Shown piece by piece: positions 26,701 to 46,363 of a stretch of DNA of 64,000 nt (positions are counted from its first letter, which is position 1; each line of letters starts with the position of its first letter). The position numbers and the translations under genes were made by a program. This DNA comes from Emticicia aquatilis (GTDB taxonomy: Bacteria; Bacteroidota; Bacteroidia; Cytophagales; Spirosomataceae): assembly GCF_014644295.1 (NCBI RefSeq), contig NZ_BMKK01000012.1:1-64000 (forward strand), given 5' to 3'. The notes below the pieces were generated by a model. That model did not search any database and was not told where the DNA came from. It worked only from the letters and a program-made list of their open reading frames with translations.

Positions 26701-27923
26701 CAGCTTATGCTTGGACAGGACCAAATGGATTCACTTCGACTATTCAAAATCCAAGTATTTCGTCAGCGACTTTAGCAGCCAGTGGCACTTATAATTTGAT
26801 AATTCTATCAAGCGGAACTTGCTTAGTAACTGTCACTACGGCCGTGATTGTTACACCAACTTGTACGCCACCTACTTTGGTTACGGCTTCGAGTAACTCT
26901 CCTGTTAATCAAGGGAGTGCGATTAACTTTACTGCTTCAAGTACGGGTGGGACAAAATATAATTGGACTGGACCGAATGGATTTACTTCAACAGCACAAA
27001 ATCCGAGCATTGCCTCTGCTACTTTAGCCGCAAATGGCACATATACTTTAACAGTACTCTCATCAGGAACTTGTACGGCTACTGCCACGACAACGGTTAA
27101 TGTCATTGTACCTAATATCTGTACGCCTCCTGCTTTGGTTACGGCTTCGAGTAATTCACCCGTCAACCAAGGAAGTACGATTAACTTTACAGCTTCAAGT
27201 ACAGGTGGTACTGTGTATAATTGGACTGGACCGAATGGATTTACTTCAACATTACAGAATCCGAGTATTACGTCAGCATCTTCATCAAATGAGGGTATTT
27301 ATACCCTATCAGTTATTTCGTCGGGAACATGTTCTGCGACTGCTACTACGAATATTATCATTTCAGTAGGGCTTTGTACGCCACCTACTTTGGTTACAGC
27401 TTCGAGTAATTCGCCTGTCAATCAAGGAAGTGCGATTAACTTTACAGCCTCAAGTACTGGCGGAACAAAATATACTTGGAGTGGGCCAAATGGTTTTAGT
27501 TCAACACTTCAAAATCCAACCATAAACTCGGCTCCTTTGGCTGCCAGCGGCACTTACACGCTCATAGTACTTTCGACAGGTACTTGTACGGCCACAGCCA
27601 CCACTCAGGTGCTTGTGACCCCAACTTGTACGCCACCGACGTTGGTTACTGCATCAAGCAATATTAATATCGAAGATGGAGGTACTATTAATCTAAAATT
27701 AACAGTGGTTGGGGCAACGTCGTTTTCTTGGAGTGGACCAAACGGATTTACTTCAAATTTACAAAATCCGAGCATTAGTCCTGCTACTTACATCAGGACA
27801 GGGACATATACAGTTACGGCAAAATCAAGCAATAATTGTACGACAACCGCCTCCGTCTTTGTAATGGTTCTACCCCCTTGTTCGCTTGCTTGTGTACCAA
27901 TTAAGGTCAGAAAAATAAAATAA
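23796..27923 (+). CDS. giant secreted SdrD-B and Ig-like repeat protein
   Basis: A 1375-residue exported protein. A signal peptide (LLYLIVGCCILLVPETFAQ, residues about 14-33) is followed by an SdrD-B/Cna-B-like module (SGTVFKDFNNDGNQT), a propeller-like region of about 500 residues and a second SdrD-B module (LGNRIWIDSNKNGVQDPDEKG). Then come seven tandem Ig/PKD-like repeats of about 84-86 residues from residue 771, each starting CTPPT-V-ASSNSPV and containing W-GPNGF-ST-QNPSI. No classical type IX sorting domain is visible; the protein ends with a short cysteine-rich, basic tail (PCSLACVPIKVRKIK) that might be an alternative signal. Likely a cell-surface or matrix protein. Single-gene unit closed by a perfect hairpin. 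Confidence 0.82.
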   Translation: MKQAPLYEKYKSKLLYLIVGCCILLVPETFAQISGTVFKDFNNDGNQTPPYELGMRNITVSVYKASTPTVVKQTDINGNYSFTAQEVPAGSMVRIEFTGLGAHSDGKRAGYSNTNVQFLTVPTGGASNVNLGILTINDYCQPDGTLIYTPCYVSGNALGGGSAGDDDALVSLPYYATGVGGTTGPMPVHIAKASEVGSLWGMDYQARGKTVLTSAITRRHVGLGPLGTGGIYKFDAVTNALGQLIDVKTLGIDTGPDPHTDLPADKLLTSQDAASVAAAGKVGIGGIALSGDEKTLYMVNLYDRKLYSFFVGVPAKTPSITSVKSYSIPNPCPNGDYRPWGVKEYQGNFYLGVVCTNETSQDSTTLSGTIYKFNPKTGEFSVLYQFPLTYKRGQADATEACQNIRYWRPWSNTFPVACSSFFDAEYGKFVGSAINPQPIISDVEFDTDGSMIIGLMDRFGLITGFKAMAPVDDGKLYDGFVSGDILRVYNNNGVYEMENNGQAGPLTGSGVNNDEGFGGGEFYGRDYWKFFDKPAHSEITNGGLMLMPGTGEVLASAMDPVDEVFHAGGFHIYDNKDGSLLRSFAVYAGKKGTLGKSGGVGDMKAACGVSFIELGNRIWIDSNKNGVQDPDEKGVGGVEITLHDMEKGGVQVGSTVTSSNGEYSFNNSNVTDTVKYEHKYQIRVNMAQNGVKTKELIDVAPGGNTLPPDEEETPERMRDSDAKWVQEIPNAPVNKARLSNAADLAGYAIIDFQTGATTLSNHSLDIGLTGCTPPTGVVASSNSPVVEGTVINFTASSTGGTAYSWTGPNGFNSTTQNPSIASATLAASGTYSVTILSSGTCTATATTAVIVTPTCTPPTLITASSNSPVNQGSTINFTASSTGGTKYNWTGPNGFSSTTQNPSIASAALTTSGTYTVTILSSGTCTATATTAIVVTPTCTPPTLVTASSNSPVVEGNPINFTVTSTGGTAYAWTGPNGFTSTIQNPSISSATLAASGTYNLIILSSGTCLVTVTTAVIVTPTCTPPTLVTASSNSPVNQGSAINFTASSTGGTKYNWTGPNGFTSTAQNPSIASATLAANGTYTLTVLSSGTCTATATTTVNVIVPNICTPPALVTASSNSPVNQGSTINFTASSTGGTVYNWTGPNGFTSTLQNPSITSASSSNEGIYTLSVISSGTCSATATTNIIISVGLCTPPTLVTASSNSPVNQGSAINFTASSTGGTKYTWSGPNGFSSTLQNPTINSAPLAASGTYTLIVLSTGTCTATATTQVLVTPTCTPPTLVTASSNINIEDGGTINLKLTVVGATSFSWSGPNGFTSNLQNPSISPATYIRTGTYTVTAKSSNNCTTTASVFVMVLPPCSLACVPIKVRKIK

Positions 27924-31110: not shown

Positions 31111-32442
31111 TCATAGACCCGTCTCCTCAGGAGCTTCCTCAGTTGCTACTTCTGACGTAAATGTATCAAATGGTTGTCCATTGCTTCTGGCGGTCATACT
31201 TTTATCACAACTTTCCCATACAAAATCTTTTCCTTTATTCACAAATTTACCAGGGCTTGTCATCGGTTCGCCATTCAAGTAAATCTGATTTACTTGCGAT
31301 ACATTATAAAATCCATTGGCTATGATTGAATAATAATTTCCATCTGATAGCTGCACAAGTGCATGGAAAACCGTGCGGTCTTTGTTTTGCTCTTGCCCAA
31401 TGCGTAGAGGCATTTTTTTTGCCGTTACGGGTTGTATATCACACGATTCTTTCAACACTAAGCCTTTCATTGAAGGAGTATTTTCGATGGCATTGACAAT
31501 CATGGTTCGGTAAGCAAATTCGAGATGCTTTAACTCATAATAATCTTCTTTGATTGGCTCAAAAATAGCCTTGTATAAATCCTGCTTTTTCTTGTCGGTA
31601 GTAAAATACTTTGAATAAACATATCCCTCGTTATTATTGAACAAGAAGCTAAAAAATGGTGTATCGCTCACAATCACCTTATAATAACCCCCTTGTAGGT
31701 CGTTTGAATACAATTTTAACTCCGAGGTCGTTGGTACTTCCACATTATTTTTATCCATATTTTTGCCAAAGAGGTCGGCACTACCCAGAAATTTCCCATC
31801 TTTTTTTGATGAATCTCTGATAATCAGTTCATTACTTAAGGCATAGACAGTTCCGAGTTTTTGGTATTCATAAAATTCATAACCTACATAAGCTAACACT
31901 CCCAGCAACGCTATAAAGAAAACATTTCGAGTTGTGTGATTTGGTGCAACATAATTATCGGCCGAAACTGTTCTTGGTGGAGGCGTGGTAGTCGAGGGTG
32001 ACGTTGGTTTGGGCGTACGCTCAACCTCAACACTGGGTCTCGGTGCTGGTTCAAGTGGCTTTTGCTCTACATTATAAGTAGGCGTCACACGCTCTATATC
32101 AACTTTGGGCGTTGACTCAGGATAATTTCGCTCCAAATTATACACATGAACTACGGGTTCTATTCTCGGTATTTCCTCAATTACATCTGGCGTTATGTAT
32201 TCGGTATTTTTTCTGAGTTCTTCTTCACTTTTCAGTGCTGTAAAAGTTCTTTCTTCCGAACTTCCATCTAACGAAAACTTTTCATAAACCAATGAGAGAT
32301 ATTGACTAATCTGCTGATTATCAATTCTTTTCAGAGCATCCAATTTATCGCTCGAAAACCTAATCTGTGGATGTTTTCTTTCCAGGAATTTAAGAAATTC
32401 AATAAAGTTGTTTTGATTAATATTCGACATATCGTTACTCAT
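31111..32442 (-). CDS. single-pass membrane protein of the SEDS-PBP cluster
   Basis: A 443-residue protein of no recognised family. Residues 1-60 are soluble and helical (FIEFLKFLERKHPQIRFSSD), 90-165 are rich in Pro, Thr and Glu (a flexible linker), a span lies at about 174-192 (NVFFIALLGVLAYVGYEFY), and the C-terminal 245 residues face the other side. That part opens with an SH3-like stretch (LIIRDSSKKDGKFLGSADLF, GYVYSKYFTTDKK). It is the last gene of the five-gene minus-strand cluster and overlaps its upstream neighbour by 4 nt (ATGA), so translation is coupled. A role in the envelope machine is inferred from this linkage; SH3-like domains often bind peptidoglycan or other proteins. Confidence 0.72.
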   Translation of the reverse strand: MSNDMSNINQNNFIEFLKFLERKHPQIRFSSDKLDALKRIDNQQISQYLSLVYEKFSLDGSSEERTFTALKSEEELRKNTEYITPDVIEEIPRIEPVVHVYNLERNYPESTPKVDIERVTPTYNVEQKPLEPAPRPSVEVERTPKPTSPSTTTPPPRTVSADNYVAPNHTTRNVFFIALLGVLAYVGYEFYEYQKLGTVYALSNELIIRDSSKKDGKFLGSADLFGKNMDKNNVEVPTTSELKLYSNDLQGGYYKVIVSDTPFFSFLFNNNEGYVYSKYFTTDKKKQDLYKAIFEPIKEDYYELKHLEFAYRTMIVNAIENTPSMKGLVLKESCDIQPVTAKKMPLRIGQEQNKDRTVFHALVQLSDGNYYSIIANGFYNVSQVNQIYLNGEPMTSPGKFVNKGKDFVWESCDKSMTARSNGQPFDTFTSEVATEEAPEETGL

Positions 32443-32885
32443 TTGTTATAGGCTAATTCAGATAATTTATAAACCACATCGGTCGGTACGAAAGCGTATT
32501 TTATCTGCCCCGCTGTTTCGATTTTAAAACTTGCCTCGACTATATTTTTCTCATGTTTTATCGAAAACCTATCGTCGTCAGTTTCCAGCAGTCTTGGGTT
32601 ATCGTTATAAAAATTTGTAATACTATTACCTTGATTACGCAGTTTAACTTGAAATCTATCATCATCTGCCATCGAAACCGTGGCATCATCTTCATAAACC
32701 AAATCAATGATTTTGGTCAGACTATCTACTCGAATCTTCACGATATTTCTCTCAGAAAGTTCATCGTTTTTTTCGGGTTTGCGTAATTCAAACGGTTTAG
32801 GCTTAATTGATAAATTCCAGACATAAATCCCCAATACAAGTATAATAATGCCCAAGAAGGCATAGATTTTTTGCATATTTTTCAT
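32439..32885 (-). CDS. small membrane-anchored protein of the SEDS-PBP cluster
   Basis: A 148-residue protein with an N-terminal anchor (IYAFLGIIILVLGIYVWNLSI, residues about 6-26) and an extracytoplasmic part of about 120 residues rich in short beta strands (IDLVYEDDATVSMADDDRF, IKYAFVPTDVVYKLSELA). No family is recognised. Its ATG directly follows the stop codon of the giant SEDS-PBP gene, and its stop overlaps the next start, so it is firmly part of the operon. It may be a small accessory subunit of that complex. Confidence 0.7.
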   Translation of the reverse strand: MKNMQKIYAFLGIIILVLGIYVWNLSIKPKPFELRKPEKNDELSERNIVKIRVDSLTKIIDLVYEDDATVSMADDDRFQVKLRNQGNSITNFYNDNPRLLETDDDRFSIKHEKNIVEASFKIETAGQIKYAFVPTDVVYKLSELAYNK

Positions 32886-35800
32886 CTATCTCATGTAATT
32901 TTTAAAGGATTCAGAATCAATAATTTGATTGATAATGGCTCGATAAACCGCCCATTCTTGGTTATCGGCTTCGTTGGCCGTAAAATAAACCACATAAAAC
33001 TTATTCGGTTGACCAAAAGTTTGGGTTAAATCATTTTGCGAAATTATCAAAGCCAAACGCTTCGAATCGTTCTGTTTTCCTTCTTTAATTGTTCCAGTTT
33101 TGGCGTAGCAATAATAATTTCGGTAAACATTCGTGCCACCAAATAGACCTGATGCCGTTCCACCTCCGAGCAATACTTGTTTCATGCCTTCAAGTAGATT
33201 TTGTTGCATAAAATCTACAAAAGTTTCATTCTGCCAAGTGCTGTCAATTTTCCAAGTCGATTTTCCAAAATCACGGTTCGTGAGGTGCAGGCTATAATCT
33301 TTGTTTTGACTAATCATCTTGCCAAACATCTCGGTCATTTTCATTGGCGTCACGTTATACGGTGTTCCGCCCAAGGTTGGGTTTTTCAAACCATTGAAAA
33401 AATTGGTGAGTGCATTTGGGTGTTTTCGTTCGGCTTGAATAAAATACGATTGCTCAGGAAAACTCCATAAAAATCCGCCTACTTGTTGCTCTCGAAGTTT
33501 ATCATAGACCACTGAATCGGCGTAATCTACCCTACCCTTACCTTTGATATTTCGGTCGGTTTTGTCAATATCCTCGACTATTAAGCCCAAATTTTTGTCG
33601 ATTCCGAGAGCCAAAAGCGATTTTTCATTTCCGAAGTAGGTTTTTTCGTCTTTTGAGCTTCGAGGCCATGCTTTTTCTTTGAACGATTTCAAACGATAAG
33701 ACACACCCGCAACTTCAAGTGCAGGAAACTGATTATTCGGGTCGCTTAAATTACTCGAAAGTGCATTTTCGATTTTGTACTGGTTGTTTTTCTTAAAATC
33801 GTCTCGGTGATATGACCCCAAAAACAACAATGCAGAATGATAAAAATTGCTCGATGTTTTAAGATAGTCAACGGGCTTAACTGTCCCAAAATGCTCACCA
33901 TGTTCGTCTATCCAACCTTTTCTTTTTGGAAGCACATACCCTGCATATTGCCCAGCCGATTCGTTTGTATCACCGATTTGTAACGAAAATACACTCGCTT
34001 GAGCTGGCTGTAAAATCAAATTTTCCCAACCAGCATTGAGCTGGGATGCAACCGAAGCATAAACTAATGGCTTAATTGACGAACCTGGGCCGTAAGCCAA
34101 ATGCAGCAAATTGGTATTTCCCCATTGGTCACGCTCGTTTTTGTTATTGCTAAAGAAAAAATACTTTTGGTTCATTTCTTCAATCGCAAGGGCATTGTTA
34201 GGGTCGATTAATTTTCTGTTTTTCACATAATCTTGCATCAACCTAATTTTTCCATCACCATCGGCGGCCATTACGGCAAATTTGAAATTAGGCACATTCT
34301 TAAACTTATTGCGGAAACTATATAAAACCGTGTCATGTACTTGCTTATTCAGCTCATAATCGAGCGAAATAGTGGCGTTCGTTTTCAACAAAGTATCAAC
34401 ATTATAGGCCGATTTCAGAGCATTGCTGTAATTATACGCCCAAAATAATTTTTCGGCCATCGGATAAACCATACGTTGCTTGCCATTGACCCAATAATTA
34501 CTCATAAAAGCATGATTATTGTTTTTTGAAAACGACACCAAGAAATGCTTTTTGTCTTCGGTCACTTGGGCGAGTTCGTCAATATCGAATTTATTCACAA
34601 ATCCGCTAATATCTTGACTCAAAACTTCTTCTCTTTGGCTCGAAACAATATCAATGGTAGTGGTTTTGCGTTTGACTTCGTTCTGCAAATTGAGCAATAC
34701 AATTGGCTCCGAAATACCCACAAACCAAGTAGCTGGCAATACCGCAACTTTAAGCGTACCACCCTCTGAACCCGCAAAAAACGGAAACTTTGTGGTATTG
34801 ATTATTCGGTTATGAATCTTGAGTATCGGATAAACCGTCGAGTCGGCACTTTCTTGATACAGATTCCCTTTCCAAGCGGTTTTGTCTTGATAAGGCGGTA
34901 ATTCAAGATACAAATGTTTGTTATAGACCGACTGATAAAGGTCGCTGTCGTAGCGAATATAAATCGGACTATCTTGCCTAAAAGCATAAGCAGGATTTTT
35001 ACGCAGAATATCAAAAATACTCTGCGAATAAGTGTCCGAAGTATCGTACAAAGCCTTAAATTCATCAGATTTCACCAAAATCGACAGGATTTTTGATAAA
35101 TCTTGCGGAATCATATTTTCTTTGTTCAATGCTCCATTATTGCTCGTTCGGAGCGTATCTTGAATATCATTGAATAAGCCATTGAGGTTTTTATTGATGG
35201 CGGTTTCGGTTTTGCTCAACGTAATCTGAAAGTTTTCTTCTCGCAGATTATTCGACCGACCGCTCACCAACAAAAACACCGCCACCGTTCCGAAAAATAT
35301 ACCATAACGAGTAAAATCGTAGGTCGGAGCAATGGTTTTGATTTTGCGTTCGATGGGCTGATTGAGCAACGGAATAAAAAACAGCGTCAGCGGCAACAGC
35401 AAACTCAGTTTACTGGTCAGACTCAAAAACGGAAAATCTTGACCAAAAAACACAAAGCGATTCGTAGAAGCCAACCACACAAAAAAGCCCAACGTAAAGA
35501 CAAAAATCAAAGCGATGCTTCCACCGTAAGACTGCGGGGCAAACTGAGTTTTATTATTTGAATCTTGCTGATATAATTGGTAGCCCATCAGATGCACGAG
35601 CATCGGAATTGCCAAAAGCATGAGCAATAAATACACGATTAAAGAACCAAACTCAGCAATCACATAGCGTGGCAAAACCACATCACGAGTTTGAGTCGAA
35701 TAATTGACCCCACGATTGAAATGTGGCTTAAAATCAATGCGTTTTGAATCGTTTTCGGTCTTATTGAGGTAACTATTGATAAACCATTGACCCTCGGCAG

Positions 35801-38426
35801 TTTCGATGATTTTTCGTTCTTTAAACGAACTATAATCACTTTCGGCAATCAAATCATCAATCGGCTGATAGATTAATGACGCTCGCTGTGCCACACTTTT
35901 GATTTGGTCGTCGATGATTTTATCAATAAAGTTTCTCGAAAACGGAATAACCAACACCAAAACTAAAGCCAAACCCATACCCAAAATTTTGTTCTGATTT
36001 TTCTTGGGCTTGGTCAAGTACAAATAAAGCGTTGAGCAAGCAATGACAATAATCAGAATGATATTTCGGTGAATTAAGAGCTTATGAAAGAGCGGTTTAT
36101 AACCAATAAAAAGCAAATAAATGAACAACGAAAGAATGCCGTAAATCCAGTAATTGTTGGGTTGCCAAAACATCGACCAACGGCTACCCGATTGAGCAGA
36201 ATAGGGTTTGCGGAGGAAACTAACGAAGATATTTTTGAGTAAAAGAAACAACAAAAACAACACGCCAAATCCTCTATCAAAAATGGCAAAAAACACAAAA
36301 GTGGCCAAAGTCAGGTAAAACTCTTGGTTTTCGGCCAAATAATTGAAAAACTTGTGCGTAAAACCTAAGATTTTATTACGGAAATACGGCTCGGTTTTCG
36401 GCTGAAAATCGGTTTGTTGGTTGATTCTTACGGAGAAAAATAAGTAAGAAACCAAAGGAATGAAAATACCAAAAATACGAACGATGAGGTCGAAATTGGC
36501 GATTTTTAGCAATAGTCCACAAACCAACAAAAGTCCGATATGGAAATACAAATATCGTTTTGGTTCGGCGTGATACTTTGCCAATAATTGCTCAAAAGCG
36601 GACTTTTTCCAACGATAAATATTCAGAAAAACGATGAATAAAGCTGGCACTAAAAACGTCAGCGGCACGGGAAGCGTGAAACTTCCGAGCGTAAAATCGA
36701 ACTGAATGAGGGTATTTTCGAGTTCATATTTACTAATATTTTCGAGTGGTGGAAAAGTGGCTACTCGCCAAAGCAAAATAAAACGATAAGCCAACAGGGC
36801 ATAGATAACCGTAAAAATAATCGGTTCGATGCGTTCGAGTTTTTGGCCAGCATTGAAAAGCAAAGTAAAAACCAACAGCAAAAATAGTATCGAAAGATAC
36901 ATTAGGTTGCTGTTGAGCGAGAAACCATTTGCCGAAAAATCTCGGATGTGAAAAAGCCATTCGTGGTTTTTATCTTGCGAACTAAGCGTAAAGTTTTTCT
37001 TGAAAACCGAAGCCTTTTGGTCATTTTGAAAATTATCAGTCATTTCGCCCGAAAAACCTACACCTGCTTGATTGATAGTGTAAATCATCGTTCCAGAAAA
37101 AAGATTCGACTGGGCATTTCGGAGGTTTTCGTGAAACAAAAAGCCTTCTTTCAACGACGAAGCATTGAGTAGCTGCGTGTAATGATTATTCAAAAACCGC
37201 ACTTGCTTTGTGCCGATTTCAATCGCATCTTTCTGAGCCGATAAGTCAAAAAATTGTGAAAAATCGAATATTAAAGCAGCATTTTTAGTGCTATTCGGAT
37301 ACTTGTTTTTATCCATCGCACTAAAGAAATATTGTTTACGAATATTATAGAAACCAATAAAAAATCTACTATCGGCCTCAATCGTAGCTTTTGATTGTAG
37401 CGTAGGCGAAACCACCGAACCATCAACTGTTAAAGAATAGCCATTCTCAAAAAAATCATTCGTCGGGAAAAGCGTAAGGCTATTTTCTGTGTTCGGATTT
37501 TTCAGTAAATAAGCATCCCCGATATTTTGCAAGATACGCTCCAGCACTTGCTTCGACTGAGCTTTTTTCGACACAAAACCGTCGTTTTCAATCAAAATTG
37601 TGTATAATTTCTTACCTTTTTCGAGAGCAACATCGGTTACTTCGATTTCGTCTTCAAATGATGAACTGAGATTCAATTGCCTTAAAATACTTTTGGCATC
37701 GCAGCGAATCGTAAGACTATAAACGTTTCTGATTTGGTGTTTACCGAGTAGTCTTTTCCACAAAGGAGCTTCATCAACGGTTTTAATATTGGTGCAACGC
37801 ACACTCACGCTATCATTGCTGATGGTAAAGTTATTATTGATGGATTTTCGGAAAATAGTATTGACGGGCGTAAATGCTTCATCAGCTGATTTTCTAACAA
37901 AAACAGGCTCGAAATAATGGTCGAAACTCAACTCAAAACCGCCATTATTGGTCTGTCTGGCTTTGAAAGTGCCGTTTTCGTTACTCCAAAGACCATCAAC
38001 CGAAGGCTGACTGGCGTTGGTAGAAAGCGTAAGCGATTGATTGAAAGCCACCCCGATATTCGACACGGCATGATAATCAGCATTATTGAAATAGGGCTTC
38101 GACTCGCTGGGTTGCTGGTATTTTCGCAGGACATAAACTGATGCAAGGAATGTCAAAGTCAGCAGTGTTAGGCCCAGAAAAGTTGAGAAAAACTTGTAGG
38201 TTGCAAGGCGTTTAGCGTTGAGTTCTTGCTTGTTTAGACTCGGAAATCTTTTCTGAAATTCTGCTCCATCAATGATTCGCTCAGAACTGATGATTCCGAG
38301 AAAAAACAACAACGAAAACACAATAACGCCACACAAAAACAGCGAAAATAAATTCAGAAAAAAGTAAAGACCAACCACCAAACCAATCAACAGCAACGAC
38401 AAAATTATAATTTTTGATTTGGTCAT
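32886..38426 (-). CDS. natural fusion of SEDS-like glycosyltransferase and class B penicillin-binding transpeptidase
   Basis: A 1846-residue protein. Residues 1-100 hold three spans; 100-505 form an extracytoplasmic beta-rich domain; about 14 spans fill 507-1055; the rest lies outside the cytoplasm. The C-terminal part carries the three transpeptidase motifs in order: S1449-S-I-K (GPGSSIKP), S1525-S-N (TSSNFYH) and K1776-T-G (YAKTGTIK). The late span block resembles FtsW/RodA: D915 and E925 in RDVVLPRYVIAEFGSL match the catalytic-loop pattern HxDFIFxxxxEExG, and FGQDFPFLSLTSKLSLLLPL (around P999) matches the TGLPLPFxSYGGSS segment. SEDS proteins polymerise glycan strands and class B PBPs crosslink them; the two are normally separate proteins. 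The SEDS half is divergent, so its activity is inferred. Confidence 0.8.
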   Translation of the reverse strand: MTKSKIIILSLLLIGLVVGLYFFLNLFSLFLCGVIVFSLLFFLGIISSERIIDGAEFQKRFPSLNKQELNAKRLATYKFFSTFLGLTLLTLTFLASVYVLRKYQQPSESKPYFNNADYHAVSNIGVAFNQSLTLSTNASQPSVDGLWSNENGTFKARQTNNGGFELSFDHYFEPVFVRKSADEAFTPVNTIFRKSINNNFTISNDSVSVRCTNIKTVDEAPLWKRLLGKHQIRNVYSLTIRCDAKSILRQLNLSSSFEDEIEVTDVALEKGKKLYTILIENDGFVSKKAQSKQVLERILQNIGDAYLLKNPNTENSLTLFPTNDFFENGYSLTVDGSVVSPTLQSKATIEADSRFFIGFYNIRKQYFFSAMDKNKYPNSTKNAALIFDFSQFFDLSAQKDAIEIGTKQVRFLNNHYTQLLNASSLKEGFLFHENLRNAQSNLFSGTMIYTINQAGVGFSGEMTDNFQNDQKASVFKKNFTLSSQDKNHEWLFHIRDFSANGFSLNSNLMYLSILFLLLVFTLLFNAGQKLERIEPIIFTVIYALLAYRFILLWRVATFPPLENISKYELENTLIQFDFTLGSFTLPVPLTFLVPALFIVFLNIYRWKKSAFEQLLAKYHAEPKRYLYFHIGLLLVCGLLLKIANFDLIVRIFGIFIPLVSYLFFSVRINQQTDFQPKTEPYFRNKILGFTHKFFNYLAENQEFYLTLATFVFFAIFDRGFGVLFLLFLLLKNIFVSFLRKPYSAQSGSRWSMFWQPNNYWIYGILSLFIYLLFIGYKPLFHKLLIHRNIILIIVIACSTLYLYLTKPKKNQNKILGMGLALVLVLVIPFSRNFIDKIIDDQIKSVAQRASLIYQPIDDLIAESDYSSFKERKIIETAEGQWFINSYLNKTENDSKRIDFKPHFNRGVNYSTQTRDVVLPRYVIAEFGSLIVYLLLMLLAIPMLVHLMGYQLYQQDSNNKTQFAPQSYGGSIALIFVFTLGFFVWLASTNRFVFFGQDFPFLSLTSKLSLLLPLTLFFIPLLNQPIERKIKTIAPTYDFTRYGIFFGTVAVFLLVSGRSNNLREENFQITLSKTETAINKNLNGLFNDIQDTLRTSNNGALNKENMIPQDLSKILSILVKSDEFKALYDTSDTYSQSIFDILRKNPAYAFRQDSPIYIRYDSDLYQSVYNKHLYLELPPYQDKTAWKGNLYQESADSTVYPILKIHNRIINTTKFPFFAGSEGGTLKVAVLPATWFVGISEPIVLLNLQNEVKRKTTTIDIVSSQREEVLSQDISGFVNKFDIDELAQVTEDKKHFLVSFSKNNNHAFMSNYWVNGKQRMVYPMAEKLFWAYNYSNALKSAYNVDTLLKTNATISLDYELNKQVHDTVLYSFRNKFKNVPNFKFAVMAADGDGKIRLMQDYVKNRKLIDPNNALAIEEMNQKYFFFSNNKNERDQWGNTNLLHLAYGPGSSIKPLVYASVASQLNAGWENLILQPAQASVFSLQIGDTNESAGQYAGYVLPKRKGWIDEHGEHFGTVKPVDYLKTSSNFYHSALLFLGSYHRDDFKKNNQYKIENALSSNLSDPNNQFPALEVAGVSYRLKSFKEKAWPRSSKDEKTYFGNEKSLLALGIDKNLGLIVEDIDKTDRNIKGKGRVDYADSVVYDKLREQQVGGFLWSFPEQSYFIQAERKHPNALTNFFNGLKNPTLGGTPYNVTPMKMTEMFGKMISQNKDYSLHLTNRDFGKSTWKIDSTWQNETFVDFMQQNLLEGMKQVLLGGGTASGLFGGTNVYRNYYCYAKTGTIKEGKQNDSKRLALIISQNDLTQTFGQPNKFYVVYFTANEADNQEWAVYRAIINQIIDSESFKNYMR

Positions 38427-39577
38427 TTTGACGAATCGTTTTTAATGATATACCCATTGATATTCACATTTTTAAGCTCATTGACCTCGTACTGTTTCAG
38501 CACATCAATGATATGAAGCACCAATTTATTATCGGTGTTGGTCGTATTAGCCGAAAAATCAATGGTTTTGAGCAACGAATGCGTTTGTGGGTTTCGGAAC
38601 TGTTGCAGATTAAGCATATCTTGCTCATTGCTCACGCCATTTTTGTGCTTCACATAACTCATAAAATGAAAAGCCAAAGGCAGCAGATTCTCAACGAGTT
38701 TTTGTTGGGTTTCTCGGTTGGCTGGGTAGTCGGTATCGTCTTTGAAATGCACGATAAACGGCCTAACGTATTCGTTCAGAATGGCAGTCAGATATTCTTT
38801 TTCTTGGCTGTTTTGCGTCTCAATTTCCTGCAAAGCTTTTTGGTGGCTTTGCTTGGTACTTTCCAATTCTCGGCTCAATTCTTCGTAATCTTTACCCAAT
38901 TTTATCGAATCGAAGTATTTATTCAGCAAGGCATCAAGGGCTGACAAGTCGGAGTAGTTGCCTCTCATGCCCAACTCGCTTTTTATTTCATTAATCTTAT
39001 CTTTTAGTGGGTCGTCACTGGTCGAAGTTGTTTTCTTTTTTGCCATGAGATATAAATAAGTTAGTAAACCGATTGTCAAAACCAAAATTCCGATGATTCC
39101 CCAGAGCATTTCTTTGGTAAAAAAACCGCTCGACGAAGCCACTGCCTCATCCGCAACAGCAATGGGCGAAATTACCAAAGAAGATTGATGATTGGGCAAA
39201 CTATAAATACGATTTATTAAATGGTTAATTACGTCAGTGCCAAAACGTGGGTCGGGCGTGTAATACTTGGTTTTTAGGTCGGCTTCTTCGCAGCCCAACA
39301 AGCCATAAATACGATTACGGGCTTCTTGGCTGTTATCTTGCATTAAAAACAGCGTATCGTTTTTGATGGCTTTCCCAAAAAGAGAAACCGTGATACTATC
39401 TTCTTGGCTCGAAATAGTGAAAGTACAGCCATCTTTTAAATTGGAATTGACTTGTAGTTTAAGACCAACCGTGCGTTCGGAGAGATTTCCTGCATTGGCA
39501 ATTTTGAGGGTATCGGCCAAGCACCAAGCTACCTTCGGTAAAACAAAAAGCAATACTGCAAGCGTGTATTTTAGCAT
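38423..39577 (-). CDS. signal-anchored coiled-coil membrane protein of the SEDS-PBP cluster
   Basis: A 384-residue protein with a signal sequence (MLKYTLAVLLFVLPKVAWC), an extracytoplasmic domain of about 130 residues, a span at about 157-178 (LWGIIGILVLTIGLLTYLYL) and a cytoplasmic part of 200 residues. The latter has a coiled coil near 230-262 (ELSRELESTKQSHQKALQEI) and a helical C-terminus. The stop overlaps the giant gene's start by 4 nt. The topology, joining periplasm and cytoplasm through a coiled coil, recalls linkers such as RodZ or MreC only by arrangement; no homology is seen. It could connect the actin-fold ATPase with the SEDS-PBP protein. Confidence 0.7.
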   Translation of the reverse strand: MLKYTLAVLLFVLPKVAWCLADTLKIANAGNLSERTVGLKLQVNSNLKDGCTFTISSQEDSITVSLFGKAIKNDTLFLMQDNSQEARNRIYGLLGCEEADLKTKYYTPDPRFGTDVINHLINRIYSLPNHQSSLVISPIAVADEAVASSSGFFTKEMLWGIIGILVLTIGLLTYLYLMAKKKTTSTSDDPLKDKINEIKSELGMRGNYSDLSALDALLNKYFDSIKLGKDYEELSRELESTKQSHQKALQEIETQNSQEKEYLTAILNEYVRPFIVHFKDDTDYPANRETQQKLVENLLPLAFHFMSYVKHKNGVSNEQDMLNLQQFRNPQTHSLLKTIDFSANTTNTDNKLVLHIIDVLKQYEVNELKNVNINGYIIKNDSSK

Positions 39578-39636: not shown

Positions 39637-39789
39637 TCCCCTCCTTTTTTCAAGGAGGGGTGGCAAAATTCTGACAAAGTCGAATTTTGACGGGGTGGTT
39701 TGTTCCAAATTGAACACTTTTTAGCTTGTTCTGTGCAAAAAAACCACCCCGCCGACTGTCGTCAGGCACCCCTCCTTGAAAAAAGGAGC
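39637..39789. repeat. long imperfect inverted repeat in the envelope cluster
   Basis: The left arm (CCCCTCCTTTTTTCAAGGAG, then GGGTGGCAAAATTCTGAC and CGGGGTGGTTT) faces a right arm (AAACCACCCCGCC, GGCACCCCTCCTTG, AAAAAAGGAG). Each outer arm also folds on itself. This 150 nt element sits in the 298 nt gap between the ATPase gene and the rest of the cluster and looks like a dispersed MITE/REP-like element; it might also attenuate transcription. Confidence 0.7.
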
Positions 39790-39875: not shown

Positions 39876-42359
39876 TCAATCAGGCAATAAACTAATCAAA
39901 TTCAATAAATTTTCATCGGGTGCTGGCTGGTTTCCTTTCAAAGACTGAATATATTCAATATCTATTTTAGCAGGAAACAGCGACGGTATCAAATATTGCA
40001 ACGTAACGGTGTCAATCTCAGAATTCTGTTCGAGTCCCGAATAACCTTTTATCTGATTGCTTTTTGAAATATTCCTGACATAAAAACCCTCTTTCGTAAA
40101 AATCAAATCGGGTGGGGTTTCAAGCCATTTTTTATCGTGGAAATTAGTATCGGCAACTGTATAAAGCGTATTTCCGATTAAAAATTTCAACGAATCTAAA
40201 TCATTGATTCGATAGGAGTTTTTCGACTCGTCATAATTATCGTGCATATTGCTCAGACGCAGCAAGAAATCAAAAAACGCTGGCATTTTGGCCTTGGTTG
40301 GCGTTGGAGCTTTCTCTTGTTTGCGAGTAGAAATCTGAATCGGGAAACCAACTAATTCGGGATGCACGATGTAACCGCTGGCAAAAATCCCATCTAAACA
40401 AATGGCTTTTAGTTGGCTGGCTTCGGTTGGCATTTTTATCAAATTGCTCGAAAAACCCAAGTCTTTCGTCATTTTTTCTTTGAGTTTCTCCAAAAGCGGA
40501 GCAAATAAAAATCCTCGACCCGTCAATAAAATACCTTCACAATCAATTCCTTTTTCGATGTTTGTCACTACTCCTTTCATGTTTTCAACAATATTGGAAG
40601 TAATTACCTCACAAGCGTTTTCAACATAGCCGCCCCAATCATAAAAACCATCGACTTTCTGCAAGAGCAAATTGAGGTTGGCGATGGTGGCCGTAAATTC
40701 GTTATTAGCAAAAGTGCGGAGATTGACATCGCCACTTTGAGCGGCCGCATTCCACGCTCGTTCGACCGCCTCTTGGTTTTCGGGTGAACGCTTGCTATAC
40801 TGAAATTTAAGCGATTCAATTTTCTCGAAAAGCTGATTCATTTGTCCTTTTTCGGCCTTTTCGAGCGATTCTAAGAAAAACGCCTTCGTAGCCGCAGGAT
40901 TAAGCGAGTTTTTGAGAATAAAATGCAAAATCGACTCGAAGAAAGCGTAGCTTATCAGATTGCCCGCCCCCGCAAAACCATTGCGATACAAAGATTTGAT
41001 TTTGCGTGAATTATTCGACCCCGTTTGGATAATCGAAAAATCGGTTGTGCCTTTGCCGCAATCAACGATAATGTAGTATTTATTGGCACTGATTTCGTTG
41101 AGTCCTTTGCTGAAATAGCCCAAAAATGCAGCATCACTTTCCGAAATCGTCACTACCTCCCAAGCCTTTATTTTGTGGGCGTAGGCGTGTTGCTGTAAAT
41201 CCTTGAAAATCTCGTTGATAACCTCTTTTGTGTTGGCTACTTCGTGAATACTATAAATATTTGGCACCAAAACCGTAAAACGAATGAATGTATTTTCGCT
41301 TTCATCGTCAAGCACGTTGTGCAGGGTTGCCTCAATAAACGATTTCAGAATCGTAGAATACGCCTGATTTTTGAGGTCGTCTAAACTCAGCGAACGCACT
41401 TTGTCGTTGAGGATTGACTGGAAATCTATAAACTTCAAAATATCGCCGTGTTTGTGGGCCAATTTGAGGTTTGAAAGCTGATGAAAATTATTGGTCAGAT
41501 TAGAATTGAGTTCGTTTTTCTGCACCAAAAACTTCAATTCATCTTCATTTTTGATAAACCTATCTTTTCTTTCGTGAAAATCATGCAGTTTTTTCTTCAA
41601 AAAGAAAATCGACTTGAGGAAGTCGGTGTTTTTCTCGAATTGAATAAAATTTTGGTCGTCTTCGGTGAGTCCTTTGAAATCCTTGACCAATTTAAACAAA
41701 CTTTTAGAAGGACTTTTCTTGGTATATCGGCGGTTGATGTATTGATAATTGCTGACTTTCAGTTGCGATGCCTCCGACCCAAAATCAAGTCCGAAATGGT
41801 GGAAACAGCTTGCATGAGCTAAATGAAAATGTAGCCTATTTTGGTAGGTTTTGCCATTGCTTTCGTACGAAAAATGGCAGTTGATATAATCTTGCTGAAT
41901 CGGTTCTTCGGGAATATGGTCGATGTAATGACCGATGATTTTAAAATCATTGGCATTATCAATGACCGAAAACTCAATATCGCCCAAGAGATAAGAATTT
42001 TGCTGAAAAGTAGTCTGAACAACCGTTGGCTGTGGTTTTGTTGGATTTTTCCAATCATCTTCTTCGTCGGTGTTAGCTTGAAACGCAGCGGGTTTGCTCG
42101 ACGTCGATAAATGAATGTGTAATTGCGGAATTGTGGCATCAAACGACACATTCAACTGCAAATTGGCCAACAAAACATCACTTTCATTGGTCACGAGGGT
42201 CTGCATCAATTTGCTTTTATCAATCGAAAACAGCGTAAAAGCGTTGTTTTCTAAGGGTAATTCGATGATAAAAGACTCGTTACTTTCAGAAAATCTTCCT
42301 TTTAAATCAAGGTAATTGGTGCGGCGGTTGTTAATGGTAAGTGGAAGGATGTATTTCAT
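39876..42359 (-). CDS. actin/Hsp70-fold ATPase of the SEDS-PBP cluster
   Basis: An 827-residue cytoplasmic protein without spans. Actin-superfamily signatures are visible: the phosphate-2-like motif YIIVDCGKGTTDFSII (D433), the connect-like segment GFAGAGNLISYAFFE and the adenosine motif GILLTGRGFLFAPLLEKL (around G614). LDFGSEASQLKV near residue 190 is a good phosphate-1 motif. Length and spacing resemble large Hsp70/SrfB-like proteins rather than MreB, FtsA or DnaK. The first 180 residues are beta-rich and the last 170 are unique. Being first in a minus-strand cluster with a SEDS-PBP fusion suggests it may scaffold or power an envelope-building complex; this role is inference. A -7 box lies just upstream. 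Confidence 0.75.
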   Translation of the reverse strand: MKYILPLTINNRRTNYLDLKGRFSESNESFIIELPLENNAFTLFSIDKSKLMQTLVTNESDVLLANLQLNVSFDATIPQLHIHLSTSSKPAAFQANTDEEDDWKNPTKPQPTVVQTTFQQNSYLLGDIEFSVIDNANDFKIIGHYIDHIPEEPIQQDYINCHFSYESNGKTYQNRLHFHLAHASCFHHFGLDFGSEASQLKVSNYQYINRRYTKKSPSKSLFKLVKDFKGLTEDDQNFIQFEKNTDFLKSIFFLKKKLHDFHERKDRFIKNEDELKFLVQKNELNSNLTNNFHQLSNLKLAHKHGDILKFIDFQSILNDKVRSLSLDDLKNQAYSTILKSFIEATLHNVLDDESENTFIRFTVLVPNIYSIHEVANTKEVINEIFKDLQQHAYAHKIKAWEVVTISESDAAFLGYFSKGLNEISANKYYIIVDCGKGTTDFSIIQTGSNNSRKIKSLYRNGFAGAGNLISYAFFESILHFILKNSLNPAATKAFFLESLEKAEKGQMNQLFEKIESLKFQYSKRSPENQEAVERAWNAAAQSGDVNLRTFANNEFTATIANLNLLLQKVDGFYDWGGYVENACEVITSNIVENMKGVVTNIEKGIDCEGILLTGRGFLFAPLLEKLKEKMTKDLGFSSNLIKMPTEASQLKAICLDGIFASGYIVHPELVGFPIQISTRKQEKAPTPTKAKMPAFFDFLLRLSNMHDNYDESKNSYRINDLDSLKFLIGNTLYTVADTNFHDKKWLETPPDLIFTKEGFYVRNISKSNQIKGYSGLEQNSEIDTVTLQYLIPSLFPAKIDIEYIQSLKGNQPAPDENLLNLISLLPD

Positions 42360-42870: not shown

Positions 42871-43443
42871 ATGCTATACACTGAATATAAACTTGCAGCA
42901 GAAAAACACATAAAAACTTGCCTTGGAATAGCACAGGCTATTGATAAACTTAATGCTCTTGATAATAGTGCATTATTAGTTTCTTCAAATAAACAAGCGA
43001 CACTTCATAATATGTTTTATATGTGTGGTTATGTACTTGAATCTATTAGTACGTATAGTGTATACAAGCATTATGGTTGGAGACCTAATAGAAATGTAAA
43101 AACTACTGACCATCATTTTAGCTCAATTTGTAATTTTTCATTCTACCCATCTGATGGTTATCCTTATTATGTACACGAACATAAATTTCAAACAAATCAA
43201 TTTGAAGTTTTAAAAGTACCTTTCGGCAATACAGGTGTACCCTTGATTGATAATTCTGTATCCGTAGACATTGATATACAAATTTTATTTAATATCTGGA
43301 AACCTGAAATAAGATACCATGAAGCTAATAGAAACTATCCATATTTACTCAACTCACATATTAATTTCAACGAAACTAATATTTTAAAATTCATCAATTT
43401 TACAAATCAAATTTATAATTCTCTCATACAAATAGTAGGTTAA
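42871..43443 (+). CDS. small HEPN-like protein, partner of the dual ATPase
   Basis: A 190-residue cytoplasmic protein. The N-terminal half is helical: LAAEKHIKTCLGIAQAIDKL, then NMFYMCGYVLESISTYSVYK, which resembles the two core helices of HEPN proteins (the xYYxxGYxxE pattern). RNVKTTDH (R, six residues, H) could be a HEPN ribonuclease motif but is a loose fit. The C-terminal half has no recognised features. The stop is 1 nt from the start of the ATPase gene, so the two are surely an operon. A TATCTTTAC box at 42825-42833 is the best promoter candidate, one base off consensus. Codon use is very AT-rich compared with flanking genes. HEPN assignment is tentative. Confidence 0.6.
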   Translation: MLYTEYKLAAEKHIKTCLGIAQAIDKLNALDNSALLVSSNKQATLHNMFYMCGYVLESISTYSVYKHYGWRPNRNVKTTDHHFSSICNFSFYPSDGYPYYVHEHKFQTNQFEVLKVPFGNTGVPLIDNSVSVDIDIQILFNIWKPEIRYHEANRNYPYLLNSHINFNETNILKFINFTNQIYNSLIQIVG

Positions 43444-43444
43444 T

Positions 43445-46363
43445 ATGATTAAAATACTCGAAATATCTCAACTAATTTCTTCTAAACTTGATTTATTAAA
43501 AAATAGTGTAATTGAAGATTATAGGATAATAGTTCGCCTTAACCTCGAACTCGATATTCTTATTATAACATCTGAAAAAAAAGTAATAGAGCAATTAAAG
43601 TCTGATTTCTCTAAATATAAAGTGACATTCAAACAAATACTCAAAGAAGATTTTGAAGAACACATGTATTTAAAAAACACTTTTCAAAGTAATGAAACGG
43701 TAAATCTTGGACTTAAATACAGATTTAACTCTTTGCTAAGTAAAAGTCCAAACAGTTTATTTAAGGTTCAAAAAAAACATTCTACACCAATATTAACATT
43801 CTATTCTTACAAAGGAGGAATGGGAAGAACAACAACACTTACATCTTATGCTTTAGACCTTGCAATCAATCATAACAAAAAGGTATGTATTATTGACTGT
43901 GATTTTGAGGCACCAGGCTATTTAAACTTTTTCAATCTTGGGAATAATGAGATTCTTAAATCTGGAACAAAAAATGGAATTGTTGAATACTTAACTGATT
44001 ACAATTTTCAGAAAGATATAGATATAAATGATTACATTATCACATTAACCGAAAGTCATGAAAAAAGATTGAAAAATCTTTTTATTATTCCTGCTGGCAA
44101 TCTTAGTGAAACCAGTATTGGTAATGATAACCAAAATTACACAACACATAGAGACCATTATTTAGAAGGACTTTCACGCATCGATTTAGCTAATGAGGCT
44201 AATATTATTAACGGTTTTGAATCCCTTTTTGAAAAAATAAACTCTACAATAAAACCTGACATTATATTAATTGACTCAAGAACTGGTTTTAATGATATTT
44301 TCGGGGTAACAGCACTTATACTTTCTGATTTAATTGTAGGTTTTTTTGGAAGTAGCGAACAAACAAAACCTGGTCTAAGATTTATACTTGATAGATTCTA
44401 CGACCTTAAAATTAAATTTGAACGAAAAACAGAACTTATTTTAGTTAATTCTATTTTACCAGATAATGAAAAAATGAGTAATGATTTTCATTCATCCTTC
44501 ATCAATGAAGTAGGGAAATACGTCGAATTCATTCAAGAGAAAAAATTAAATAAAGCAATAACAGAACAAGCTCAGCTACCTGCTTTTTATAAATTAACAC
44601 GAAATAATATTTTAGAAAAAATCGGAATAAAAGAAGATGAAAGTTATGAGCAAGATTATATTGACCATATCAAGATAATAAGAGACAAATCTTTTGTAGA
44701 TTATAATGTAATTTTTAACGCTATAAGTGAAAGTGATTCTGTAAATAAAATATTCGAAAAAATTATTGTTTCGAATCATGTAAAAACAATAGAACTCAAA
44801 AATACAATTTTAAGACGCCTCAAGCAGCTTTTGAGAAATGATGATGGTAAACCGAAGTTATTTGCTGAAGATGCTGAGGTTAAACCCGAAACTTTTTTTT
44901 ATCGTGAACAAATGAATGAACTTTTTCAGCGAGAAAAATTTATCATTCAAGGTTTTAAAGGAACAGGAAAAACCTATCTGTATAAAGCCTTAGTAAACCC
45001 AAAACTTGATGAGGTAAAAAAAGAATTGTTAAGACGCTCAGAAATAAATACCAATTCTGACTATCGGTTTATTGATATTATTTCCTTAAAAGGTAAAGGC
45101 GAACCTAAATCTTTTGATTTTAAAAGAATCAAAACAAGTGAAATTAAAGAAAAAAGATACTATTTTACTAATTTTTGGTTGGTCTACACATGGAATTCTA
45201 TTTTGTTGGATGCAAAAACTAAACTTAACTATAATCTAGATTCTGAGTTACAGTCTTATGTGCAAGCGATTAATCCTGATACAGATACAAAACGGAGATT
45301 TGAAGAGCTAATAAATAGTGAAGATAAAATTATCATTATAGAAAAGGAGCTTAAATTATTAGATGAATTTTTAGTAAATAATAAAATTAACTTAGTTGTT
45401 TTATATGACCAGCTTGATAATTTAATTGAACCCAATGAATGGGGAGATTCTGTTTCTCCTCTTATTGACTATTGGTGGGATAACCTTAATAGATTCAAGA
45501 ACATTAGCCCTAAAATATTTATTAGAACGGACTTATATAGAAGATTAAAAGGAACAAATACAAGTCGCTTGGAAAGTAATAAAATTAAAATTGAATGGTC
45601 AAGAGAAGAGGTTTATTCATTCTTTTTCAAACTTATTTTCTCAAATACAGATTCGTATAATGCCTTGTTTGAAATAATGCAGAGAAGTAATAGATATGAT
45701 GAAGTATTCATTAGTAATACAAAAAAATATCTTTCAAAGAATCAAAATCAATTAAACTTATATAGAAATGAGATTGAACCATTCATGACGATTTTCTTTG
45801 GTAAAGAGGTAAGAAGCAATACAGGTTCTTTAGGTAATACTTTTGATTGGTTCTATTTTAATTTAACAAATGCCGACCAAAAATCAATTAGTTTAAGACC
45901 ATTTATCAATCTTGTGGATGGTTCAATTGACAAATCTTTACAAGACCCAGAAAAACATATCACACAGATAATAGACCAAAAATACTTTGCTACCAGAGAA
46001 AATCGAGACAATGCGGTAAAACAGCACTTTGATGATTTAGTGAGAGAGGATTTTAATAAAGATTTACAAATAATTTTCAACTTTTTAAAGGAAAAAGGAA
46101 ACGCCTACAAGCAAATCTTTCTTTACAAAACTGAACTTTACGAACTTTTAGAGAAGATATTTGCGGAAAATGAAAAGCTATTAGATAGTAAATCTGTGGA
46201 AGAATTGAAAGAAATTCTTGTGTCCAACGGAATAATCCATGAAAATGTTAAACCAGACGAAAACATATTTTATTTTGCTCAACTATATAAGTATTGGCTT
46301 GGTTTACAAAGTAGAAAGTATGAATTCAAACAAGTTTTGCGTAAATCCTCGTATAGGAAATAA
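43445..46363 (+). CDS. dual NTPase: MinD/ParA-like KGGMGR ATPase fused to a second P-loop NTPase
   Basis: A 972-residue cytoplasmic protein. After a 115-residue N-terminal region comes a MinD/ParA-type ATPase: FYSYKGGMGRTTTLTSYALD (deviant Walker A, K123, with Arg128 where Lys is usual), CIIDCDFEAPGYLN (D151, D153) and ILIDSRTGFND (D277). A second P-loop, IIQGFKGTGKTYLYKAL (K509), is followed by a Walker-B-like VVLYDQLDNLIE (D655) and FIRTDLYRRLKGT. The C-terminal 250 residues are helical. KGGVGR-variant ATPases of this kind are found in defence and conflict loci. With the HEPN-like gene 1 nt upstream it forms a compact two-gene unit in AT-rich DNA between core genes. The function is inferred. 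Confidence 0.8.
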   Translation: MIKILEISQLISSKLDLLKNSVIEDYRIIVRLNLELDILIITSEKKVIEQLKSDFSKYKVTFKQILKEDFEEHMYLKNTFQSNETVNLGLKYRFNSLLSKSPNSLFKVQKKHSTPILTFYSYKGGMGRTTTLTSYALDLAINHNKKVCIIDCDFEAPGYLNFFNLGNNEILKSGTKNGIVEYLTDYNFQKDIDINDYIITLTESHEKRLKNLFIIPAGNLSETSIGNDNQNYTTHRDHYLEGLSRIDLANEANIINGFESLFEKINSTIKPDIILIDSRTGFNDIFGVTALILSDLIVGFFGSSEQTKPGLRFILDRFYDLKIKFERKTELILVNSILPDNEKMSNDFHSSFINEVGKYVEFIQEKKLNKAITEQAQLPAFYKLTRNNILEKIGIKEDESYEQDYIDHIKIIRDKSFVDYNVIFNAISESDSVNKIFEKIIVSNHVKTIELKNTILRRLKQLLRNDDGKPKLFAEDAEVKPETFFYREQMNELFQREKFIIQGFKGTGKTYLYKALVNPKLDEVKKELLRRSEINTNSDYRFIDIISLKGKGEPKSFDFKRIKTSEIKEKRYYFTNFWLVYTWNSILLDAKTKLNYNLDSELQSYVQAINPDTDTKRRFEELINSEDKIIIIEKELKLLDEFLVNNKINLVVLYDQLDNLIEPNEWGDSVSPLIDYWWDNLNRFKNISPKIFIRTDLYRRLKGTNTSRLESNKIKIEWSREEVYSFFFKLIFSNTDSYNALFEIMQRSNRYDEVFISNTKKYLSKNQNQLNLYRNEIEPFMTIFFGKEVRSNTGSLGNTFDWFYFNLTNADQKSISLRPFINLVDGSIDKSLQDPEKHITQIIDQKYFATRENRDNAVKQHFDDLVREDFNKDLQIIFNFLKEKGNAYKQIFLYKTELYELLEKIFAENEKLLDSKSVEELKEILVSNGIIHENVKPDENIFYFAQLYKYWLGLQSRKYEFKQVLRKSSYRK

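Follow-up and report, generated by a model that had tools for sequence, protein, structure and literature searches.

A 1846-residue protein of Emticicia aquatilis, encoded as the third of five genes in an operon, is probably a single-chain peptidoglycan synthase, in which a SEDS-like polymerase would pass its product to a fused transpeptidase and which, with an ATPase and further partners from the same operon, would act beside the normal wall-synthesis machines. The DNA analysed, referred to below as the window, comprises forward-strand positions 1-64,000 of contig NZ_BMKK01000012.1 (assembly GCF_014644295.1; contig C12 in our own labelling). The features are listed in Table 1.

Table 1. Features of the giant gene and its operon (window coordinates; residues are those of the giant protein)
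Feature	Position	Strand	Basis
Giant gene (1846 aa) for a class B PBP with a fused SEDS-like domain	32886..38426	minus	uninterrupted ORF, ATG start
Beta-rich, presumably extracytoplasmic domain, residues 105-500	36927..38114	minus	AlphaFold model
SEDS-like polytopic domain, residues 530-1030	35337..36839	minus	profile-profile comparison (significant from about residue 800 on), model helices
Codon of R848 (R210 of E. coli RodA in the alignment)	35883..35885	minus	profile alignment; invariant in 38 aligned members
Codon of D915 (catalytic D262 of RodA in the alignment)	35682..35684	minus	profile alignment; invariant in 38 aligned members
GQDFPFLSLTS segment (residues 995-1005; G333..P337..S340 of RodA in the alignment)	35412..35444	minus	profile alignment
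Class B PBP-type part (anchor span, pedestal, transpeptidase), residues 1034-1846	32889..35327	minus	structure search, profile alignment
S1449xxK1452, corresponding to PBP2 S330/K333	34071..34082	minus	profile alignment
S1525xN1527, corresponding to PBP2 S387xD389	33846..33854	minus	profile alignment
K1776TGT, corresponding to PBP2 K544SGT	33090..33101	minus	extended, low-threshold alignment only
Actin/Hsp70 (ASKHA) type ATPase, 827 aa, first gene of the operon	39876..42359	minus	motifs, weak Pfam matches, profile match
Bitopic protein, 384 aa: one span between an extracytoplasmic part with signal peptide and a coiled cytosolic part	38423..39577	minus	by eye
148-aa protein, one N-terminal span	32439..32885	minus	by eye
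Bitopic protein, 443 aa: cytosolic N-terminal part, proline-rich linker, span at about 172-191, outer part	31111..32442	minus	

A first-pass annotation of this DNA had proposed one 1846-residue polypeptide, and the reading frame was indeed found to run unbroken from an ATG over 1846 codons of the minus strand. Homologues in three further genomes of the genus were 65-67% identical across query residues 2-1846 and free of stops; the giant gene is therefore no chance ORF. An alignment of the giant protein was built from 38 of the 46 loci, leaving out fragments, near-duplicates and some unused loci (L115 and L120, for example); the ATPase alignment took in 34 of 42, and alignment A8, 36 of 38. Eight of the 60 listed plasmid matches were taken as rows, and rows with fewer than 40 residues in a slice were excluded. 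The residues singled out in the annotation (S1449xxK, S1525xN, K1776TG, D915, E925 and a segment near 999) were all located where it had placed them, and S1449, K1452, S1525, N1527, K1776TGT, D915, E925, P999 and S1002 were invariant across the 38 aligned relatives. The predicted topology also agreed with it. Read by eye on the AlphaFold helices, about three membrane helices lie ahead of residue 105 (residues 1-104) and 14 spans, the approximate number expected, at residues 504-1056, while the anticipated outer domain of ca. 400 residues before the spans is seen in the model as a beta-rich region at residues 117-496. Foldseek and VIA searches with the model of this domain (residues 105-500) returned no significant fold match, and Pfam, NCBIfam and PDB sequence searches recognised neither half of the giant protein.

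The relationship of the C-terminal half was established from structure and profile searches. Foldseek with model 2, which includes the PBP half, gave 55 matches at E ≤ 1e-3 (best 3.5e-8), and the best 50 rows of each of the Foldseek and VIA lists for this model were PBPs, which we take to be of class B. The structural match to a PBP2 chain begins at about residue 1181 of the giant protein and residue 65 of that chain. Profile-profile comparison of the C-terminal half with class B PBPs gave an E value of 1.5e-12 and placed S1449, K1452 and S1525 on S330, K333 and S387 of PBP2. A helix at residues 1034-1056, read by eye in the model, corresponds to the PBP anchor span and directly follows the last SEDS-like span. 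No GT51 domain was found in Pfam and NCBIfam scans of the giant protein, and the absence of a direct match to PF00905 is the outcome of a detection test and not a biological feature. We conclude that the fold match to the predicted structure, together with the register of the motif residues, confirms a class B PBP transpeptidase fold in the C-terminal half, as the first-pass annotation had proposed.

To compare the membrane domain with SEDS proteins, 51 rows of the giant family were set against 42 SEDS rows (several phyla), with 38-39 of the 51 rows retained by the hhalign filter. E values of 5.2e-5, 2.9e-4 and 7.3e-4 were obtained for residues 800-1045, 640-1045 and 505-1045, respectively; earlier, narrower profiles had reached P values of 0.013-0.086 only. 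Five controls with one side reversed gave E values of 0.17-0.52, and rival membrane families compared with residues 800-1045 gave 0.036 (Wzy_C), 0.10 (CcsA) and 0.49 (MraY). None of 200 segment-shuffled decoys matched the real score in either of two regions; the best decoy scored 32.0 versus 43.3 in the longer region, and came close to the real score in the shorter one (40.3 versus 41.9). Three disjoint clades, each used alone, agreed in the SEDS residues on which they placed D, E and G..P..S (E = 0.021, 0.005 and 8e-5, the first two values being weak). In this register, R848, D915, E925, G995, P999 and S1002 correspond to R210, D262, E271, G333, P337 and S340 of E. coli RodA, so that D915, which the annotation had wished to see compared with the catalytic aspartate, falls on that very residue. 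SEDS proteins have the catalytic Asp in the loop before span 8 and an Arg at the end of span 7, and D915 and R848 align with these two residues. PMC10449877 describes D262 of RodA as the catalytic residue and gives binding of pyrophosphate as the proposed role of R210; in PMC8765783, dominant-negative changes of FtsW are located in or beside outer loops 2 to 5. The model helices, read by eye, are compatible with ten SEDS spans, an inserted hairpin (residues ca. 760-805) and the PBP anchor. Placed by eye, residues R554, R650 and D717.G719 lie in outer loops matching R48, R101/R109 and the PD.G turn of RodA; the automatic alignment does not confirm this, and spans 1-6 are without reliable alignment, D717 being placed on RodA P112 or P67 and not on the PD.G turn.

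Family models gave a different result. None of 36 members of the giant family matched PF01098 or the NCBIfam SEDS models, and a PDB sequence search revealed no direct match of the giant protein to SEDS. The Foldseek and VIA lists for model 1, the middle part of which has a pLDDT of about 60, contained no SEDS entry. There is no proline at the position aligned with RodA P257 (the LPE motif), ahead of T911-Q912-x-x-D915; according to PMC10449877, the P257A change abolishes RodA activity. Two split members keep the D..E stretch and lack the GQDFP motif, and the SEDS profile is closer to Wzy_C (E = 6.7e-10) than to the giant family. Because of the missing P257 counterpart, the split members without GQDFP, the closer SEDS-Wzy relation and the model 1 search, the domain is named SEDS-like here and kept out of PF01098. 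We conclude that the profile comparisons support a remote relation of the membrane domain to SEDS proteins in its catalytic half. The SEDS assignment of the first-pass annotation is partly supported, as remote homology over the catalytic C-terminal part; no member matches a SEDS model, and spans 1-6 gave no reliable alignment.

The giant gene lies in a run of five consecutive minus-strand genes, which code for proteins of 827 (the ATPase), 384, 1846, 148 and 443 amino acids. The ATPase gene is followed by a gap of 298 bases; all other neighbours abut or overlap by 4 bases, as the 384-aa gene does with the giant gene at its start. The ATPase motifs DFGSE.SQ, D.GKGTTD.S and L.GR.F, presumably the phosphate-1, phosphate-2 and adenosine motifs, were invariant and in this order in 34 members. 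Weak Pfam matches were obtained to DDR (8 of 34 members), Actin (6 of 34) and MreB (6 of 34), with a best E value of 0.002, and an alignment of four proteins of the same genome found with the MreB model was matched at the profile level with an E value of 3.6e-4. Judged by its sequence, the 827-aa protein is an ATPase of the actin/Hsp70 (ASKHA) type. In 42 of 46 loci it is encoded upstream of the giant gene and in the same orientation, with one or two additional ORFs between the two; in the other four (L102, L106, L109 and L131) the contig ends no more than 112 bases from the start of the giant ORF, and the presence of the ATPase cannot be judged. The first-pass annotation had no means of seeing that an operon with such an ATPase is conserved. 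No match to MreC, MreD or RodZ was found among the nine window proteins scanned. The outer part of the 443-aa protein appeared SH3b-like by eye and had no Pfam match.

The following mechanism is proposed. The SEDS-like domain would polymerise a lipid-linked wall precursor by means of D915 and R848, and the glycan chain would be handed directly to the fused class B transpeptidase, where S1449/K1452, S1525/N1527 and K1776 would serve in crosslinking. Catalysis by the giant protein is suggested by the invariance of these residues; we infer polymerase activity, lipid II as its substrate, and the occasion on which the enzyme would be used. The cytosolic ATPase and the small membrane-crossing partners may link, position or switch the synthase, with control by the ATPase possibly running through the bitopic 384-aa and 443-aa proteins, by analogy with MreB and RodZ/MreC, which serve RodA-PBP2. 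The ATPase may also form filaments; its coupling to the synthase is suggested by gene order and by groups shared between trees. The giant protein would work alongside the normal machines of elongation and division and would not replace them.

Separate wall genes, for which the first-pass annotation had suggested a search, are present elsewhere in the host genome: two SEDS genes (contigs C6 and C7), seven PF00905 matches and an MreB. The PF01098 and PF00905 matches are distributed over contigs C6, C7, C10, C11 and C14, with none on the window contig, which agrees with the earlier placement of the giant gene outside canonical wall clusters. A Chitinophagaceae genome (G411) also carries SEDS and PBP genes beside the giant system. 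Since canonical genes coexist with it, the system looks additional and does not appear to be a replacement.

Like RodA-PBP2 and FtsW-FtsI, the giant protein combines a SEDS-like polymerase with a class B transpeptidase, has the key residues in register, and has the PBP anchor helix right after the final SEDS span. It differs from these pairs in being one chain encoded in its own operon, in an extra N-terminal part of 500 residues that includes the beta-rich outer domain, in the inserted helix hairpin, in a SEDS half below the detection level of family models, and in the lack of a proline at RodA P257. The elongasome (MreB, MreC/D, RodZ, RodA and PBP2) is similar by analogy, as it joins an ATPase of actin-fold type and bitopic linkers to a SEDS-bPBP pair, whereas the operon ATPase is of a much larger ASKHA family and is not MreB, the genome having its own MreB elsewhere. 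The first-pass annotation had regarded a covalent SEDS-PBP unit with extra domains, outside the dcw or mre clusters, as unusual. A SEDS-PBP fusion as such is already on record in PMC10449877, which cites the Rhodococcus RHA1 genome, and another was found by us. The second fusion (L084:8335-12000, minus strand), from another Bacteroidota family, is 1221 aa long and likewise has SEDS first and PBP second in one ORF. Unlike the giant protein, it matches PF01098 (E = 8e-51) and PF00905 (E = 5e-35) strongly; it also contains a CarboxypepD_reg domain and adjoins an FHA/FhaA_N gene, and no relatives of the giant-operon genes were found beside it. Among the matches listed in the open-licence PMC literature, no title dealt with such an operon. 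What is new, as far as we have seen, is that the SEDS half diverges to an extreme degree, that there is a large outer domain, and that the operon with the ATPase is conserved.

Other functions of the giant protein were weighed against the same data. The membrane domain could polymerise or transfer another undecaprenyl-linked glycan, in the manner of Wzy/WaaL, with the transpeptidase attaching or crosslinking this glycan to peptidoglycan, which would make the protein an anchoring enzyme for surface polymers. The O-antigen polymerase/ligase superfamily is a relative of SEDS at the profile level (the E value of 6.7e-10 given above), the giant domain is far from canonical SEDS, and the outer domain of 400 aa and the missing P257 suggest a different substrate. 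We nevertheless consider this function unlikely, since the fit to SEDS (5e-5) is far better than that to Wzy_C (0.036), each of the three clades favours SEDS (though Wzy_C reached 0.021 in one), and glycan-assembly Pfam matches were absent from the flanking genes scanned in one relative (L114). Moreover, a class B PBP is the typical partner of SEDS proteins, and we know of no fused transpeptidase in the Wzy/WaaL superfamily.

It is less probable still that the membrane domain is unrelated to SEDS and is a polytopic scaffold anchoring an unusual class B PBP, with convergent motifs. The lack of direct HMM or PDB-sequence matches and of SEDS entries in the model 1 search, with its middle part at low pLDDT, is in line with such a scaffold; the profile E values, reversed controls, rival families, decoys and three-clade register favour SEDS instead, as do the invariant Arg and Asp found on outer loops in SEDS order when the helices are read by eye. 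That canonical synthase genes are already present in the host would also suit a catalytically dead, ATPase-driven sensor or regulator of wall synthesis. Invariance of the aligned catalytic residues of both halves across 38 members is hardly to be expected of a dead enzyme, and we regard this role as very improbable. A single-chain synthase remains our preferred interpretation of the giant protein.

Wall synthases are enzyme pairs under the direction of cytoskeletal ATPases, which act on them through many parts that hold together loosely. If our interpretation is true, this compact operon, which encodes its own ATPase and a single chain uniting polymerase and crosslinker, would make it possible to test directly how polymerisation and crosslinking are coupled to each other and to steering by the cytoskeleton, and the sequence range of SEDS-like enzymes would be widened far past the current family models. 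More tentatively, and with the balance of our judgement somewhat against it, some Bacteroidota might possess a third, horizontally moving wall machine besides the elongasome and the divisome, made of a one-chain SEDS-PBP synthase, its own large actin-like ATPase and transmembrane linkers, and devoted to a specialised wall zone or a wall-linked polymer.

The giant gene was found in 7 of 150 genomes of its own family (itself included), 2 of 291 of its order, 2 of 395 of its phylum, and 20 of 195 of the Chitinophagaceae, two of the latter in split form. The 45 named loci come from Emticicia, Taibaiella, Edaphocola, Persicitalea, Terrimonas and many Bacteroidota MAGs. A quick tree of the giant protein grouped the Emticicia rows with Taibaiella/Edaphocola and L099 (15 rows, support 100), apart from Persicitalea, which suggests that the gene has moved from one family to another. 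The ATPase and giant trees have their main groups in common, with several long branches uncertainly placed. Two genomes, both of one genus, encode the giant as a pair of adjacent genes (595/590 and 1188/1187 aa) downstream of a related ATPase; the break in these loci (L144:9314-14671 and L145:7943-13282) is near the R650 region and cuts off the outer domain together with the first spans. The Taibaiella lutea giant (L104:9923-15100; also L157) is 1725 aa long, lacks profile positions ca. 1150-1260, and has no 150-aa gene downstream.

Several minor features were observed around the operon. The 298-base gap between the ATPase and 384-aa genes, which is short or absent in three relatives viewed (L090-L092), holds a terminator-like hairpin of 9 pairs (6 GC) on the minus strand (window 39638-39660), perhaps an attenuator; hairpin-type matches in the scanned region numbered 18, versus 11.0 in shuffles. 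Directly upstream of the operon, an AT-rich stretch (GC 0.28-0.31; window 42871-46363), perhaps an island, holds a 190-aa ORF without matches and a 972-aa ORF with a ParA/AAA_31-like P-loop. A 1375-aa protein with SdrD_B and Ig-like domains is encoded at window 23796-27923, and members of the same similarity cluster adjoin the operon in several Taibaiella/Edaphocola loci, although repeats may inflate this clustering. In 18 loci, all of cluster 6 (L114:4366-5205 among them), the ATPase gene is preceded by one for an additional protein of ca. 279 aa; the L114 copy has no Pfam match, and by eye the protein consists of one span and a GYF-like cytosolic part.
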